Shown here: one piece after another, positions 1-8,121 of the stretch
Numbering within the stretch: the first letter of the stretch is position 1
Layout: the number at the start of each line of letters is the position of its first letter
DNA from: Planococcus maritimus
GTDB lineage: Bacteria > Bacillota > Bacilli > Bacillales_A > Planococcaceae
Length of the DNA stretch: 64,000 bases
Direction: 5' to 3'
Assembly (NCBI RefSeq): GCF_001687625.2
Contig: NZ_CP016538.2
Location: 3,192,501-3,256,500 of the forward strand
The notes under the pieces: model-generated
Database searches by the model: none
What the model was told of the DNA's origin: nothing
The model's input: only the letters and a program-made list of their open reading frames with translations
Made by a program: the position numbers and the translations under genes

Positions 1-536
1 CTATCAAGTGCGGCCGTCGGTTCGTCTGCAATGACGAGCTCCGGCTTGGTTAACAGAGCTAAAGCTATCGAGCTGCGCTGAAGCTGACCGCCGCTCAATT
101 GAAACGGGTAGCGCGTATACAATTCTGGTCGCAAACCGACTGACTCGAGCGCTCGTTCTGCCATTTCGCGCCTGCGCTTTTTCGGCAACCGGAAATGAGT
201 TTTCAAGAATTCATCAAAATGGCGACCAATGGTGTGAAACGGCGTGAAGGAACCTTGGTAGTCTTGAAAGATGTAAGAAATGGCCGTCCCTCGCAAACGA
301 CGCATTTGTTTTCCGTCCAGCTGCAGCAAATCCACACCGTTGTAAATTGCTTTGCCGCTGGCGTTTAGATTGGGTGCAAGCAAGCGGCCGATTGCTGAAG
401 CGGTGACGCTTTTGCCGCTGCCGCTCTGCCCGATGATCGCAAGCCATTCGCCTTTTTGGATATCAAAGGAAATATTTTTTGCGAGTGAGGCTTCTCCGGC
501 CTGGACTGTTAAGTTTTGTACGGAAAGCAAAGTCAT
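1..536 (-). CDS. Nickel/peptide-type ABC transporter ATP-binding protein, NikD/OppD-like (3' end outside window)
   Basis: ATPase subunit of the Nik/Opp importer encoded just upstream. About 178 N-terminal residues are visible and the reading frame is open to the left edge. Seen: Walker A GQSGSGKS near residue 36, Q-loop in FQDYQGSF, ABC signature LSGGQLQR and Walker B LVIADEP, in the expected order. The start ATG at 536 overlaps the permease stop as ATGA, which implies translational coupling. Families of this type usually have a second ATPase (NikE/OppF) next, which would lie outside the window. The substrate cannot be told from the ATPase; the Zur-like boxes upstream of the operon point to zinc or a zinc-metallophore complex rather than nickel or peptides. 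The ATPase call is secure, the substrate is inferred. Confidence 0.93.
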   Translation of the reverse strand, partial: MTLLSVQNLTVQAGEASLAKNISFDIQKGEWLAIIGQSGSGKSVTASAIGRLLAPNLNASGKAIYNGVDLLQLDGKQMRRLRGTAISYIFQDYQGSFTPFHTIGRHFDEFLKTHFRLPKKRRREMAERALESVGLRPELYTRYPFQLSGGQLQRSSIALALLTKPELVIADEPTAALD

Positions 537-1369
537 TCTGCCACTTCCTTTTTCACGTCAAATTTATCGCGTAAATAATCGCCAAGCAAATTGGAGAACA
601 AGACGACCGTTACGATGGCGAGTCCCGGGTAGATCATTAAGGCAGGCACTGTCTGAAAATATGGGCGGGCTTCATTGAGCATCGCGCCCCATTCTGGTGC
701 CGGCGGCTGTGCGCCAAGCCCAATATACGAAAGGGAAGAAATCAATAAAATGATTTTTCCCAGGTCCAGGCTCGCGAGCACGAGAATATGGCCAATCAGA
801 TGGGGAAATAAATGCTTGCGCATGATGCGCCCTTCACTCAGGCCATTGATTCTGGCCATGGTGATGTAATCCTTTTGCCGTTCCGTGACCACGGTGCTGC
901 GGGCGAGGCGTGCGTAATTTACCCATCTAACCAACACGATCGCCAATAGCAGATTTTCGAGTCCGGCACCGAGCAAACCGCTCAGCACGATCGCGACAAC
1001 CGTATCCGGGAACGCCAAAAACGCATCCGCCACTCTCATCAGGAGGCGATCAACGATACCACCTTTAAATCCGGCAATAACGCCGATCGACACGCCAATA
1101 GCTGATGCTAGTAGCAACGCCACAAAGCCATAGCCCACTGTCAATTGAAATCCAAGCAAAATGCGTGTCAGCATATCGCGGCCCAAATGATCGGTGCCAA
1201 ACGGATGCTGCCAGCTCATTGGAAGCAATCGCCCATTCAAATCGACAAATTCCGGATCATGCTTCAATACGAGAAACGCATACGCCGCAATCACAGTGAT
1301 TAGCAACAGGATGGCCGCTAAGGAAATTTGGGTAAGGCGTGCTTTGTAACTGGCAAATTGACTCTTCAT
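533..1369 (-). CDS. ABC transporter permease, NikC/DppC-like
   Basis: Inner-membrane permease of the Nik/Dpp/Opp family, about 278 residues, normal for the family. I place the start at 1369 (MKSQFASYK) because it is preceded by GGGAGAGC and its ATG overlaps the stop of the upstream permease as ATGA; an 18-residue upstream extension is possible but unlikely. It has an N-terminal membrane segment, the OppC-type extracytoplasmic motif HPFGTDHLGRD, several hydrophobic segments and the EAA-type cytoplasmic loop around ARINGLSEGRIMRKHLFPH, which contacts the ATPase. It forms a heterodimer with the permease encoded at 1366-2313. Same operon and same inferred substrate as the binding protein at 2314-3843. 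Confidence 0.93.
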   Translation of the reverse strand: MKSQFASYKARLTQISLAAILLLITVIAAYAFLVLKHDPEFVDLNGRLLPMSWQHPFGTDHLGRDMLTRILLGFQLTVGYGFVALLLASAIGVSIGVIAGFKGGIVDRLLMRVADAFLAFPDTVVAIVLSGLLGAGLENLLLAIVLVRWVNYARLARSTVVTERQKDYITMARINGLSEGRIMRKHLFPHLIGHILVLASLDLGKIILLISSLSYIGLGAQPPAPEWGAMLNEARPYFQTVPALMIYPGLAIVTVVLFSNLLGDYLRDKFDVKKEVAE

Positions 1370-2313
1370 CTTGCTCTCCCCTTTCCTTTTAAGCGCAGCT
1401 CCGGATTCAAGTAGCGATAGCACAAATCGACAAGGCTATTAAGGGCAAACACCAACATGGCCATGACGAAAATATAGCCCTGGATCATCGGGTAATCCCT
1501 GCTGCGAATGGCATCAACGACCATTTTGCCGATTCCGGGATAAGCGAAAATCACTTCAATGACCACCACGCCACCGATCAAACTGCCGAGGCTGACGCCG
1601 AAAACGGTGATGACTGGAGGCAAACTCGCGCGTAGCACATGGCTGAAGAAAATTCGCGGTTCTGGAATTCCCCGGGCACGAGCAGCTCGGATATTCTCCT
1701 GGTTCAAGGCATCGATCAAACTCGAGCGCAATAGCCGGACATAGACACTCGACATCGCAAGGCCCAACGTAATAGAGGGAAGGACGGCAGAATGCAAGCC
1801 GTCCCTCCCCATAGTCGGCAGCCACCCCAGGCGAACGCCGAACAGATCGATCAAAATAAGGCCCAGCCAAAAACTTGGAATGGCCGCTCCGATTAGTGAG
1901 ACGCCGCGGCTTACCTGGTCGATCCAGCTGCCTCTGTGCAGGGCGGAAAGGGAACCGAGCGGTAAAGCAACGAGTACCATGACGAACAGCCCGCCGAGCG
2001 TCAATTCTAAAGTTGCCGGAACACCGCCTCGCAGCATGTCCATGACCGGCTGGTTGGAAATATAGGAATTTCCGAAATCCAAACGAACAAAATCGGCCAA
2101 CCACTCGCCGTATTGCACAAGCAAGGGCTCGTTAAATCCCATGTCCTCGCGTAGTTGCTCCACTTGATCGGCCGAAACCGATAAATCATCGACGCGCAGG
2201 ATCGATAGCACCGGATCTCCCGGAGCCATGCGGGCGAACAGGAAACTGACGAACGTAATCAGTAAGAGAAACACCGCAACTTCGACTAAACGGCGCGTGA
2301 TGATCCGGATCAC
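1366..2313 (-). CDS. ABC transporter permease, NikB/DppB-like
   Basis: First permease of the Nik/Opp-type importer, 315 residues, full length for the family. It begins with a membrane anchor (RRLVEVAVFLLLITFVSFLF), followed by the typical APGDPV motif near residue 31, an extracytoplasmic region and an EAA loop around ARARGIPEPRIFFSHVLRA. The start is GTG at 2313, directly after the TAA stop of the binding-protein gene, so translation is probably coupled. The stop overlaps the start of the second permease. Gene order binding protein, permease B, permease C, ATPase is that of nikABCD and cntABCD operons. Family assignment is firm; metal specificity is inferred from the operon's upstream region. 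Confidence 0.93.
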   Translation of the reverse strand: MIRIITRRLVEVAVFLLLITFVSFLFARMAPGDPVLSILRVDDLSVSADQVEQLREDMGFNEPLLVQYGEWLADFVRLDFGNSYISNQPVMDMLRGGVPATLELTLGGLFVMVLVALPLGSLSALHRGSWIDQVSRGVSLIGAAIPSFWLGLILIDLFGVRLGWLPTMGRDGLHSAVLPSITLGLAMSSVYVRLLRSSLIDALNQENIRAARARGIPEPRIFFSHVLRASLPPVITVFGVSLGSLIGGVVVIEVIFAYPGIGKMVVDAIRSRDYPMIQGYIFVMAMLVFALNSLVDLCYRYLNPELRLKGKGRAR

Positions 2314-3843
2314 TTACTGCACATCCAATTCGTTCGTCAGCATATAATACTCGCTTCTCGTCGTCGTCCAATTTTTCACCTTGTCGGAGTTGTAGGCGAC
2401 GAGCGTATTTGGATGCAACACAAACGAGTTGTACATCTGTTCATCGACGTAGCTAGCAATGTCTTTGGCAATATCCGAACGCTGCTCCTGTCCGACCACC
2501 TGGTTCAATTCATCAATCATCGCCGTCAGCTGTTCATCATCTGCCCCACTGAAATTCAAGGCACCTTCCGGATGATAGGTCGCGTTCAAATAATAACCCG
2601 CATCCCCGCGAGGCGCCGTTAAATTGCTGTAAGTCGCCAAATCCCAGTCACGGTTAGTAGCCATATGCTCTTCCGGTATTTCGATTTGCTCAATTACCAC
2701 TTCAACACCAAGCTCACCGGCTGCTGATTGAAACACTTGGGCAATCAAAGGCAAATCAGCACGTGCGCTATACGTCAACAACGTCCATATCAACGGCTCA
2801 CCGTCTTTTTGCATAACACCATCTTGCTCTGTATAGCCTGCCTGTTCCAATAGCTTGCGCGCTTCATCGATTCCATATTCTTTTTCAGGGTAATCCGGCG
2901 AAAAGGAGAAGGAAGATGGGAATGGCCCGTTTGCCACTTCCGCATGGCCGCTTAAAATTGTCTCAGCGATCATATTACGGTCAATCAGTGCATCGATTGC
3001 CCGTCGGACATGGACGTCTTTCAAGGATTCGCGTTCGAGATTCATCGTCAGCTGATGGACACGGAAAGTCGAAGTCGACTCGACCGTCACGCCTTCAATC
3101 GCTTCCAATTGCTCGACCGATTCCACTTCCGGGCGGAACACGATGTCCGCGCCTTTTGACTCCAGCGCAAGCGAACGGGCATTGGCGTCTTCGTTAAATG
3201 AAAATCTCGCTTTTTCCAGTTTTGCAGCGCCGTCCCAATAGTCTTCAAAGCGCACCAAGTCTACAGCCGTGCCAGGCGTAAATAATTCGACGGCAAACGG
3301 CCCTGTGCCGACAGGTTTATTGATGAAGTCGGTTCCGTCCACATCGATGATCGCCGTATTGGGATGCACCAGTTCGGACGGGAATTCCGGGAACGGCTTC
3401 GTCGTTTTGATGGTCAGTTCCGATGCTTCTGCTGTAATCGATTCGATGCGCAAGGCATTCTTGATAGCAATATTATCGGCCATGGCCCGTTCTAGAGAAG
3501 CTTTCACCGCTTCACCGTCCATCGCCTTGCCGTTTTGAAACTTCACGTCTCCGCGCAGCTGGAACGTCCAAGTCTGGCCATCCTCACTCGACCAGCTCTT
3601 TGCCAGCCATGGTTCAATCTCCAAAGTCTCGTCGTTCAAATAAACCAAAGTCTCGGCAATTCCTGCCCGCACCGGTACATAACTGGTGTCGACATGAGGG
3701 TCCAGTGAATTGGTCGCAAAATTAAACAATAAATTCACTTCTTTGACGTTCCCTTCCTCATTTTTTGCCGCCGAATCGGAACAGGCGGATAGCACTAGCG
3801 CCGTAACGGCGACTGTAGCAAGTAAAAGCAATAATTTCTTCAT
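2314..3843 (-). CDS. Metal/peptide ABC transporter substrate-binding lipoprotein, NikA/CntA-like (SBP family 5)
   Basis: Solute-binding lipoprotein that captures the ligand outside the membrane and delivers it to the permeases. 509 residues, with a lipoprotein signal (MKKLLLLLATVAVTALVLSAC; Cys at residue 21 would be lipidated). The family 5 signature is clear: WLAKSWSSEDGQTWTFQLRG near residue 80 and KPVGTGPFAV near residue 175. The NFATNSLDPH opening resembles NikA/CntA-type proteins more than oligopeptide binders. The start at 3843 has AAGGAGAAG upstream. It is first in the operon, with two Zur-like operators 85-225 bp upstream of the start codon. Known: CntA of Staphylococcus aureus binds metal-staphylopine and is zinc-regulated. 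Inference: this system imports zinc, perhaps as a metallophore complex; no metallophore biosynthesis genes are in the window. Confidence 0.85.
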   Translation of the reverse strand: MKKLLLLLATVAVTALVLSACSDSAAKNEEGNVKEVNLLFNFATNSLDPHVDTSYVPVRAGIAETLVYLNDETLEIEPWLAKSWSSEDGQTWTFQLRGDVKFQNGKAMDGEAVKASLERAMADNIAIKNALRIESITAEASELTIKTTKPFPEFPSELVHPNTAIIDVDGTDFINKPVGTGPFAVELFTPGTAVDLVRFEDYWDGAAKLEKARFSFNEDANARSLALESKGADIVFRPEVESVEQLEAIEGVTVESTSTFRVHQLTMNLERESLKDVHVRRAIDALIDRNMIAETILSGHAEVANGPFPSSFSFSPDYPEKEYGIDEARKLLEQAGYTEQDGVMQKDGEPLIWTLLTYSARADLPLIAQVFQSAAGELGVEVVIEQIEIPEEHMATNRDWDLATYSNLTAPRGDAGYYLNATYHPEGALNFSGADDEQLTAMIDELNQVVGQEQRSDIAKDIASYVDEQMYNSFVLHPNTLVAYNSDKVKNWTTTRSEYYMLTNELDVQ

Positions 3844-3928
3844 AACATCTTCTCCTTTTTAAATAACCTCGTCGAAACTGATTCGATATACAAATATTTT
3901 TTCTGAATGGCTGCTCAACATAAGCCAC

Positions 3929-3949
3929 CAAAAGTAACCGTTACGATTT
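3929..3949. promoter_or_regulatory. Zur-box-like palindrome, distal copy
   Basis: About 15 of 20 informative positions agree with the Bacillus Zur operator (two AAATCGTAAT-type half sites as an inverted repeat). The right half GTTACGATTT is nearly perfect and the left half is degenerate. It lies about 85 bp upstream of the nikA-like start. Confidence 0.5.
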
Positions 3950-4048
3950 ACAAAGCAAAAAAATTTCGGCCTCCTATAACAGCGGGCTAAAACATTCTAT
4001 GTAGGGCAAAACTTCCGATCAGAGCGAATAGCCATGCAAACGGCATAC

Positions 4049-4069
4049 AAAGAGTAATAATTACGATTT
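4049..4069. promoter_or_regulatory. Zur-box-like palindrome, near-perfect copy
   Basis: About 18 of 20 informative positions match the Bacillus Zur operator; the core reads GTAATAATTACGATTT. Together with the weaker box at 3929-3949 it would give zinc-dependent repression of the transporter operon reading leftwards. The rest of 3844-4364 contains no credible gene. Confidence 0.65.
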
Positions 4070-4364
4070 AAATCATATCCTTTTGTGCTTTATTGCGCAA
4101 GTGCGTTTTTAAGCTTTTATTTATTCTCAAATAAAAAAGGCTAGCTAAAACTTCAGCCTGCCCTTGTAGCGAATGCCTATGTATTTATATAGCCTTTCCG
4201 TTGTTCCGCGAAAAAGCGAGTGGTTTTTCGGTAACTTTGTTGATCATTACTCAGCTGTACTTGTAGCAGGTGCAGCAGTTAGTATGCCTACAAGCCCTCA
4301 GCAGCACATTGAAAGCATTATGCGAACATTGACTTTTAGCGATCTGCTTATATTGGAGGCTTCT

Positions 4365-4535
4365 TTATGTTTTGTTGTTAGCACATGCATCGCACGTAAA
4401 CCGAGCTTCCAGTTTTAAATAGGCTTTGATTTCGGTGAATCCTCTTCTCTTCGGGTAGCGCATCTCGAGATGGACCGGTTCGCCGCCTTCGATCTCTTTG
4501 CCGCACACTCGGCACTTCGATGATTCATTGAACAC
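4365..4535 (-). CDS. Small conserved CxxC...CxxC protein (56 aa)
   Basis: Short gene of 56 codons with GTG start at 4535, a strong GGGAGGGA site just upstream and TAA stop at 4365. The product begins VFNESSKCRVCGKEIEGG and has two CxxC knuckles (CRVC near residue 8 and CDAC near residue 48), so it is probably a small zinc-binding protein. Between them is a basic stretch, MRYPKRRGFTEIKAY. I recall close relatives in Bacillales databases mislabelled as Fe3+-hydroxamate transporter binding proteins; nothing in the sequence supports transport. It starts 22 bp after the lipoprotein gene upstream, so the two are probably co-transcribed. Function unknown. Confidence 0.8.
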   Translation of the reverse strand: MFNESSKCRVCGKEIEGGEPVHLEMRYPKRRGFTEIKAYLKLEARFTCDACANNKT

Positions 4536-6364: not shown

Positions 6365-7993
6365 TTAATTTGATAGATAGACATCCGTCATTAAATCGTT
6401 GCTCATCGGATGTGGATTGTAGTCTTCCACAAAATCGCTTTGCGCTAATGGCGGTGTCGTATACGCAAGCATTGTCCATGGTGCGTCTTCCTGGAACAAT
6501 TGCTGGGCTTGCTGGTACAGTTCTGTACGCTTGTCCTGGTCAATCGTTTCACGCGCTTCTGTGATCAAAGACGTGAATTCATCGCTCTTGTAAAACGCAA
6601 TGTTTTGCGCAGGCACTTCGGCGTTCGTTTTACTGAGATTCGGATAAAGGAAATTGTCCGGGTCCGCCATGACACCAGTCCAGCCGTACATGGCCATGCT
6701 GTGCTTGCCATTCTTCGTATCTTCTAAATAAGTTGCCCATTCAGACGACACGATTTCCGCGGTAATGCCGATTTCAGCCAAATCCGACTGAATCGCTTCC
6801 GCAATTTTCATTGGCTCCGGCAAATAAGGACGCGGATTGCTCATCGTATGCAGCTCCGTCGTAAACCCGTCTTCCAATCCCGCTTCCGCCAATAGCTTTT
6901 TCGCTTCCTCTACGTTGTAGTCGTATTTCTCAAGCGAGTCGTCATGGCTCCAAAGAGACGGTGGCAGCGGGCTTGTCGCGGGATCTGCCAATCCGTTATA
7001 AAATGCATCAACGATTTCTTCTTTATCAATCGCCATATTGATGGCCTTGCGCACTAATGGATCGTCGAACGGTTCTTTTTCCATATTGAATGCCATATAC
7101 CCGATATTGAAGCTCGGGCGTTTTAGCAGCTCGATGCCTTCAGTGTCTTCCACAATCGTCGTATCGCTTGCGTTCATTCCATCCACAATATCGATTTCCC
7201 CTGTCTGCAAGGCATTCAAGCGTGCAGAGTTCTCCGGGACGACCTGATAGATGACTTGATCGAGGTAGGGTTTGCCGTCCATCCAATACTCTTCGTTTTT
7301 GGAAAGCGTGATGGTGTTATTGCGGTTCCATTCTTCGAACTTGAATGGCCCCGTCCCGACCGGATTCTCGCCGATGTCAGTCCCGTATTGTTCAATCGCT
7401 GCAGGGCTTGCGATCCCAAACATGGAAATCGCCAAATAGCTGAGGAACGGCGCAGTTTTTCGCTTCAAGACGATTTCTAGTTCATGCTCACTTGTAGCTG
7501 TCACCGATTCAATCAAGTGGTTGTCGTCTCCTTTAAATCCACCGTACAGAAATGGATAATAAGGAAAATCCCCTTCATGGTATGGGTTTTCCGGATCCAT
7601 CCAGCGTTCGAAATTAAAGACCACAGCTTCTGCGTTAAAATCGGTGCCATCGTGGAACTTGACACCTTCACGCAGCTGGAACGTCCAGGTCAGACCATCT
7701 TCGCTTGAGCTATAATCCGTCGCCAGTTTCGGCTGAAGTTCCAAATTGTGGTCGTACTCCAATAATGTTTCATAAATATTGTGCGTGACCCGAATCGATT
7801 CACCGTCCGTTACATTGATTGGATCCAAACTGACCGAATCGGCGCCGCGTCCATATACTAAAGTCCCTCCGCTTTTTTCATCTTCCGATACAGCACCGGA
7901 ACTACTTTTTGTCTCGTCACCTGAACATCCGGCCAGCAATGCGATGCCGAACGCGATAAAAAAATAGAACAAGTTACGCACTTTCTTCTCCAT
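6365..7993 (-). CDS. Peptide ABC transporter substrate-binding lipoprotein (SBP family 5, DppE/OppA-like)
   Basis: 542-residue solute-binding lipoprotein. The start at 7993 (MEKKVRNLF) has GGAGGCGG upstream; the seven-residue longer form is not supported. The lipobox is LLAGC, followed by a Ser/Glu-rich linker. Family 5 signatures: LATDYSSSEDGLTWTFQLRE, FHDGTDFNAEAV, and NPVGTGPFKF near residue 215. It has no permease or ATPase next to it, so it presumably feeds a dipeptide or oligopeptide transporter encoded elsewhere. Its co-directional neighbour is an M42 aminopeptidase, which fits peptide scavenging. The ligand (di- or oligopeptide, perhaps glutathione) is not determined by what can be seen. 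Confidence 0.88.
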   Translation of the reverse strand: MEKKVRNLFYFFIAFGIALLAGCSGDETKSSSGAVSEDEKSGGTLVYGRGADSVSLDPINVTDGESIRVTHNIYETLLEYDHNLELQPKLATDYSSSEDGLTWTFQLREGVKFHDGTDFNAEAVVFNFERWMDPENPYHEGDFPYYPFLYGGFKGDDNHLIESVTATSEHELEIVLKRKTAPFLSYLAISMFGIASPAAIEQYGTDIGENPVGTGPFKFEEWNRNNTITLSKNEEYWMDGKPYLDQVIYQVVPENSARLNALQTGEIDIVDGMNASDTTIVEDTEGIELLKRPSFNIGYMAFNMEKEPFDDPLVRKAINMAIDKEEIVDAFYNGLADPATSPLPPSLWSHDDSLEKYDYNVEEAKKLLAEAGLEDGFTTELHTMSNPRPYLPEPMKIAEAIQSDLAEIGITAEIVSSEWATYLEDTKNGKHSMAMYGWTGVMADPDNFLYPNLSKTNAEVPAQNIAFYKSDEFTSLITEARETIDQDKRTELYQQAQQLFQEDAPWTMLAYTTPPLAQSDFVEDYNPHPMSNDLMTDVYLSN

Positions 7994-8121
7994 TGATTTC
8001 CGCCTCCATTCCACTCTCTTTCTCTAATACAATAAAGCGTTAGAGGAGCAAGATAATTCCAAGTATAAAGTTAGTGGAATAAATTTTCAAATCTAATTTT
8101 TCAGATATTTTAACAAATATT

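Follow-up and report, generated by a model that had tools for sequence, protein, structure and literature searches.

Does an operon that annotation would assign to nickel or peptide transport in fact import zinc? The question is raised by a 64-kb stretch of the Planococcus maritimus genome (the window, meaning the whole of the DNA analysed), at one end of which lies a Nik/Opp-type ABC transporter preceded by two sites resembling the operator of the repressor Zur. The genes and sites are listed here, those outside the window by their coordinates in L009.

2314–3843, minus strand: substrate-binding lipoprotein (NF045468 Opp5A_nikA, 709 bits, cut-off 600)
1366–2313, minus strand: ABC permease 1, NikB-like (NF045470 Opp2B, 435.5 bits, cut-off 350)
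533–1423, minus strand: ABC permease 2, NikC-like (NF045474 Opp2C, 347.7 bits, cut-off 300); the true start is probably the ATG near 1369
1–536, minus strand: first ABC ATPase, NikD-like to judge from its position; truncated at the window edge (the complete gene is L009:4736–5536)
L009:3975–4739, outside the window: second ATPase
L009:2660–3961, outside the window: MATE exporter (TIGR00797, 238 bits, cut-off 147.4)
3929–3949: proximal, weaker putative Zur box (5 mismatches), within the predicted 5' untranslated leader
4049–4069: distal putative Zur box, AAAGAGTAATAATTACGATTT on the plus strand, with 2 mismatches to the Bacillus operator; it overlaps the predicted start of transcription
4072–4077, minus strand: predicted −10 element TATGAT, with a 17-nt spacer, ending 2 nt before the distal box
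4095–4100, minus strand: predicted −35 element TTGCGC, which agrees poorly with TTGACA

The binding protein and its family

The family to which the binding protein belongs is named for nickel, and the solved structures of its staphylococcal member, SaNikA, were deposited as nickel-binding. The protein falls well short of the classical NikA equivalog TIGR02294 (163.6 bits, cut-off 393) and of the CntA model NF047575 (130.9 bits, cut-off 800), and has 25% identity to a staphylococcal CntA. Among solved structures its best relative is 3t66 (695 bits over residues 26–508), from Bacillus halodurans, followed by SaNikA (269 bits). 3t66 was deposited under the name of a nickel-binding protein; to judge from its relatives, it is possibly a binder of zinc chelates too. 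A PRGDxGY stretch is common to SaNikA and the protein studied here, so that the sequence offers no zinc-specific pocket. Residues specific to such a pocket were also sought by comparison. Staphylococcal members are consistently distinguished from the others at 11 positions, from which no claim about the metal is made.

The superfamily is shared with the Opp/Dpp transporters, which would allow for an importer of peptides or amino acids placed under Zur, salvaging zinc-binding amino acids or peptides and not metal. However, the protein scores 709 bits against a metal-type family and lies far below the cut-offs of the listed peptide-family models, and we regard such a role as very improbable. A second substrate-binding lipoprotein gene is found in the window (6365–8014, minus strand), adjoining an M42-type aminopeptidase gene; its closest model is DppA, below the cut-off.

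Zur boxes at the locus and in the genome

The reference operator was the Bacillus Zur 21-mer AAATCGTAATNATTACGATTT, which has 20 defined positions. The distal box agrees with it at 18 of these and the proximal site at 15, which bears out the earlier note, where a match of about 18 in 20 and a weaker second site had been described. The distal core differs at 2 positions from the Zur core and at 5 each from the Fur and PerR cores, using what we take to be the consensus letters of the three.

A scan of the window with the 15-base core was not decisive: it gave 6 matches with up to 3 mismatches against 3.2 expected, and 10 of 100 shuffles reach 6. It was replaced by a scan of the whole 3,280,721-base genome (3.28 Mb) with the full 21-mer. 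This identifies five places with up to 3 mismatches, one of them being 4049–4069, whereas the reversed control pattern gives zero matches at that threshold in the same scan. The whole-genome result is decisive as to whether the distal box is a chance match.

The four other genomic boxes all lie by genes with a zinc connection: one precedes a znuA/adcA-type lipoprotein gene, one precedes znuC-znuB-zur, and two are found by a yciC/zigA-like gene, 153 bp apart in the gap between this GTPase gene and a divergent oxidoreductase gene. The znuA-, znuCB- and yciC-type names are those of best matches, with scores below the NCBIfam equivalog cut-offs. The Fur-family gene that ends the boxed znuC-znuB operon, one of three encoding Fur-family proteins in the genome, is called zur by its position after znuCB, its score against the NCBIfam Zur model being 29.3 bits (cut-off 167). 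The operon has at its promoter a site like AAATCGTAATNATTACGATTT, which is the operator by which a member of the Zur regulon is recognised. The same operator is shared with the B. subtilis Zur regulon (znu, yciC and ribosomal paralogues), and is found here on the znuA-type, znuCB-zur and yciC-like genes.

Two neighbouring genes may be mentioned. The divergent FAD/NAD(P)-binding oxidoreductase gene near the second of the paired boxes (L010:5127–6307; genome C1:3112626–3113806) seems to be divided between two frames, and is possibly a Zur-regulon member in decay. Just upstream of the operon promoter, an ORF at 4365–4535 (minus strand) encodes a 56-residue protein with two CxxC pairs, resembling a zinc ribbon.

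Promoter and leader

A scan of the region for consensus promoters gives no match because the −35 element TTGCGC is poor, and the promoter was taken from an alignment. In 15 loci of the genus, an invariant TTGC and either TATGAT or TATTAT are found upstream of the distal box. Of the 16 genus loci, 15 were assigned by a promoter scan a TTG-type −35 element together with a −10 element that stops exactly 2 nt short of the distal box; the spacer measures 17 nt in 14 of these loci and 18 nt in the other. For the remaining locus the scan chose a different pair, though the alignment shows the same promoter there too. Given this position of the −10 element, the distal box covers the predicted transcription start, the place expected of a repressor site.

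The distance between the boxes is 118–173 bp in the genus (loci of the type with at least 72% identity) and 26 bp in six loci of two other groups, g10 and g14. In g10, another genus of the family, it is the second box that starts 2 nt after the −10 element (5/5 loci); no −10 element of this kind was found by the scan in the single g14 locus. Because the spacings vary, a looping model with fixed helical phase is unsupported. A riboswitch in the leader was also considered, and the search gave no Rfam match up to E = 1.

Conservation of the boxes among relatives

The family model NF045468 finds carriers in 85 of 398 genomes sampled across the class and in 24 of 250 genomes of the same family, which makes 104 distinct genomes. 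When up to 5 mismatches are allowed, every one of the 25 same-family loci has a box, and 22 of them, including all 16 genus loci of the type with at least 72% identity, have two. The weaker second site of the earlier note is thereby upheld: the putative proximal box is backed by this conservation and not by its own score. At the stricter threshold of 3 mismatches, an upstream box is found in 23/25 same-family loci, 47/65 loci from elsewhere in the class and 30/38 named loci, a set that has some members in common with the others (Planococcus sp. ISL-110, for instance) and from whose counts loci of 34% identity or less (L186–L227) were left out. No box of this quality appears in 50 shuffles of each locus set, which keep dinucleotides only approximately, and 3 of 1015 control windows have one. 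With these observations and the position of the boxes, we hold it very likely that the operon is under Zur control.

Counting the best copy per genome, 71 of 83 non-staphylococcal carriers have a box with up to 3 mismatches, 9 have one with 4–5, and 3 have none. In contrast, none of 21 Staphylococcus-like carriers has an upstream Zur box; the label for this group rests on one member's 635-bit match to SaNikA and one genus label for all 21. Several second copies also have no box, for example L081, L084, L124 and L125.

Thinning of the 138 distinct proteins at 85% identity left 87, from which a tree was built with 3 outgroups. In it the Staphylococcus-like proteins group in a single clade (support 1.00), next to the other members. 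SaNikA (4ofj), a nickel importer of the same NCBIfam family, sits in a clade neighbouring that of the protein studied here. The box-less second copies L124 and L125 branch deeper than the Staphylococcus-like clade, and the box-less L122 is at the base of the non-staphylococcal rest, with weak support (0.78). This rest splits into a clade holding all the cnt-linked members and a clade holding the present operon.

YciC/ZigA-like (CobW/ZigA-type) GTPase genes are found in 7 of 59 neighbourhoods, one of them checked by model. Those in L151, L161, L164, L167, L176 and L182 (from Paenibacillus, Litchfieldia and Robertmurraya), near the transporter, again with one model-checked, are an observation pointing to zinc.

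Nickel enzymes

One reason to think of nickel is the family label, and the operon could encode a true importer of nickel (or nickel and cobalt) that is merely tied to Zur and feeds facultative nickel enzymes such as glyoxalase I. The Staphylococcus-like members fit a nickel role well, since they resemble SaNikA, deposited as nickel-binding, and accompany urease, which is found in 20 of the 21 genomes, with ureC no more than 2.5 kb away from the transporter in 10 of the 21 (by coordinates). Most other members of the family show the opposite pattern of box and enzyme: 20 of the 83 non-staphylococcal carriers have urease and 63 do not. Urease was counted only at E 9e-51 or better, and weak matches (E 1e-7 to 1e-3), which probably represent other amidohydrolases, were excluded. 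In the P. maritimus genome itself, searches for urease and [NiFe]-hydrogenase give 0 matches, with positive controls.

As far as the available text of a 2009 survey of nickel use goes, nickel transporters, for the most part NikABCDE, occurred in 10 organisms for which a nickel enzyme was not known; glyoxalase I was suggested as what such orphan Nik transporters may serve, and misassignment was judged unlikely to matter (PMC2667541). Against nickel, however, stand the negative searches for urease and [NiFe]-hydrogenase in this genome, the zinc-switch box in most non-staphylococcal carriers, and the opine-type zincophore genes linked to the transporter in 7 genomes (see below). We therefore consider a nickel importer to be distinctly unlikely here. 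Of the 20 urease-bearing non-staphylococcal carriers, 19 have a box with up to 3 mismatches, and in these boxed carriers nickel import on the side is possible.

Zur control itself argues for a role in zinc rather than in nickel transport. The proposal of the earlier note, that the supposed nickel or peptide transporter is an importer of zinc or of a zinc metallophore, gains from the boxes in this respect; the likeness that it drew to Cnt systems is not borne out in detail, as discussed next.

Relationship to cnt-type metallophore systems

The best-known comparison is the staphylopine system (CntABCDF with CntKLM and CntE), likewise a Nik/Opp-type ABC importer under Zur, as is predicted here. 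In the accessible part of PMC5666155, S. aureus CntABCDF is described first as a nickel/cobalt importer and later as importing zinc via staphylopine, with Zur and Fur both affecting its expression.

Relatives of the present transporter do sit beside cntM-like genes. The search for cntM covered 24/24 carriers in the family, 54/59 other non-staphylococcal carriers and 2/21 Staphylococcus-like ones, and of these 80 carriers 24 have a cntM-like gene above the Pfam cut-off. In Planococcus sp. ISL-110, of the same genus, and in Alkalihalobacillus macyae, the transporter comes after a synthase gene resembling cntL, an opine dehydrogenase gene resembling cntM and the gene of a small exporter of the drug/metabolite type. 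The ISL-110 CntM-like protein matches PF10100 with 456 bits, and its exporter passes the Pfam EamA model. The CntL- and CntM-like proteins of both organisms score below the staphylopine-specific NCBIfam cut-offs, which suggests that these clusters probably make an opine other than staphylopine. Five further genomes (G130, G418, G429, G435 and G601) have a cntM-like gene immediately before the transporter, with the gene order seen in ISL-110; the cntL-like gene was model-tested in G130 alone and is otherwise assigned from position and length, as is the exporter. In each of the seven cntM-linked genomes, two of which belong to this genus, one Zur box precedes the synthesis genes and another the transporter gene.

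The linkage is looser elsewhere. G320 has a third transporter copy immediately next to cntM, and the search of this locus gave no Zur box; in G368 and G330 the cntM-like gene is 4–7 kb away. In 15 of 26 fetched loci, the binding protein adjoining the cntM-like gene is only 28–31% identical to the NF045468-family protein studied here, and one such staphylococcal protein, a partial sequence, scores 798 bits as CntA. It is worth adding that G130, of the same genus, has besides its cnt-linked copy a decayed orphan operon (L030, L138), with a stop in the binding-protein gene and disrupted frames for permease and ATPase, which looks as though one copy had taken the other's place.

The P. maritimus genome differs in this respect. 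The earlier note had proposed looking for metallophore synthesis genes, and profile searches of this genome for cntL (NF033601) and the opine dehydrogenase gene cntM (PF10100) give 0 matches, while G058 and G130, both of the same genus (g1 in the case of G058), are positive for both. The binding protein belongs to NF045468 and not to the CntA family NF047575, and where Cnt systems have an MFS or EamA exporter gene, a MATE gene is found here. With no CntA-type protein and no cntL or cntM in this genome, the operon is not itself a Cnt metallophore system. The link that had been drawn to staphylopine thus survives in part: the family does occur behind cntM-like genes with Zur boxes in seven genomes, and the binding protein is not CntA.

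The MATE exporter

The MATE gene starts 13 bp after the last ATPase gene, and one follows the ATPases directly in 24 of 59 neighbourhoods, a count in which some are duplicates from the same genome, a few are incomplete, and frames overlap in some. Close MATE homologues (E <= 1e-90) are found in 28 of the 250 family genomes: 22 of the 24 that have the transporter and 6 of the 226 others (Fisher p 5e-24, uncorrected for ancestry). It is likely, though unproven, that the MATE protein is a partner of the transporter. In L278, L279 and L280, MATE homologues adjoin other Opp/Nik-type transporter genes, as read from the translations, so that the pairing is recurrent.

Such an arrangement could mean that the MATE protein exports an endogenous, non-opine chelator whose zinc complex is re-imported by the ABC system. 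Its position in the operon and its co-occurrence with the transporter both fit this, as do the opine zincophore clusters described in the available text of PMC7438024, which have MFS or EamA exporters, or in fusobacteria MATE exporters, and two types of importer. But the operon has no biosynthesis genes, the co-occurrence figure ignores shared ancestry, and in at least three genomes (G007, G124 and G212) the MATE gene is elsewhere, among unrelated genes. The prediction that unlinked MATE genes would carry a Zur box of their own failed, with 0 of 29 MATE loci, linked and unlinked together, having one. A shuttle for a self-made zincophore is accordingly unlikely.

Proposed function

The reading that we favour, and hold to be probable on the sequence comparisons above, is that the operon encodes a Zur-repressed importer of a zinc chelate, related to the cnt-linked importers and having no opine pathway of its own. 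Zur binding, zinc as the metal, the ligand and any role of the MATE protein are what we infer from these comparisons. When zinc is plentiful, zinc-loaded Zur would bind the distal box over the start of the TTGCGC-17-TATGAT promoter and block transcription, and would probably also bind the second box, which lies in the leader 120 bp further downstream. When zinc falls, Zur would leave, and the cell would make the transporter together with ZnuABC and the YciC-like chaperone. The lipoprotein would then capture a zinc chelate, which might be zinc-histidine, a neighbour's opine zincophore or plant nicotianamine. The operon as a whole (lipoprotein, two permeases, two ATPases and MATE) would thus import a complex of zinc with a small chelator, and only in zinc shortage.

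A wider proposal can be offered tentatively, as one that we would not yet back over its negation: that there is a widespread second class of bacterial zinc-chelate importer, filed under nickel, with an orphan, non-opine branch to which this operon would belong. Members of this branch might pirate the zincophores of others, including those of cnt-bearing Planococcus relatives, or cycle a home-made ligand via the MATE protein.

We found no report of Zur control of the NF045468 family among the open-access papers searched, and it may have been described elsewhere. No Nik-type operon is named among the Zur targets of B. subtilis in the available text of PMC5007448, nor in that of PMC6336718, on Zur targets in B. 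anthracis, or of the Zur review PMC6103462.

The zinc reading bears on the puzzle of the nickel survey, at least as its accessible text presents it (PMC2667541), namely transporters in organisms that have no nickel enzyme, if it is assumed that those 10 organisms overlap with the present clade. It would extend import of the zincophore type to bacteria in which no opine pathway is detected, suggesting either piracy of public goods or an unknown ligand. Outside the Staphylococcus-like genomes, most of a family curated as nickel transporters appears to serve zinc; if this is true, many annotations would be corrected.
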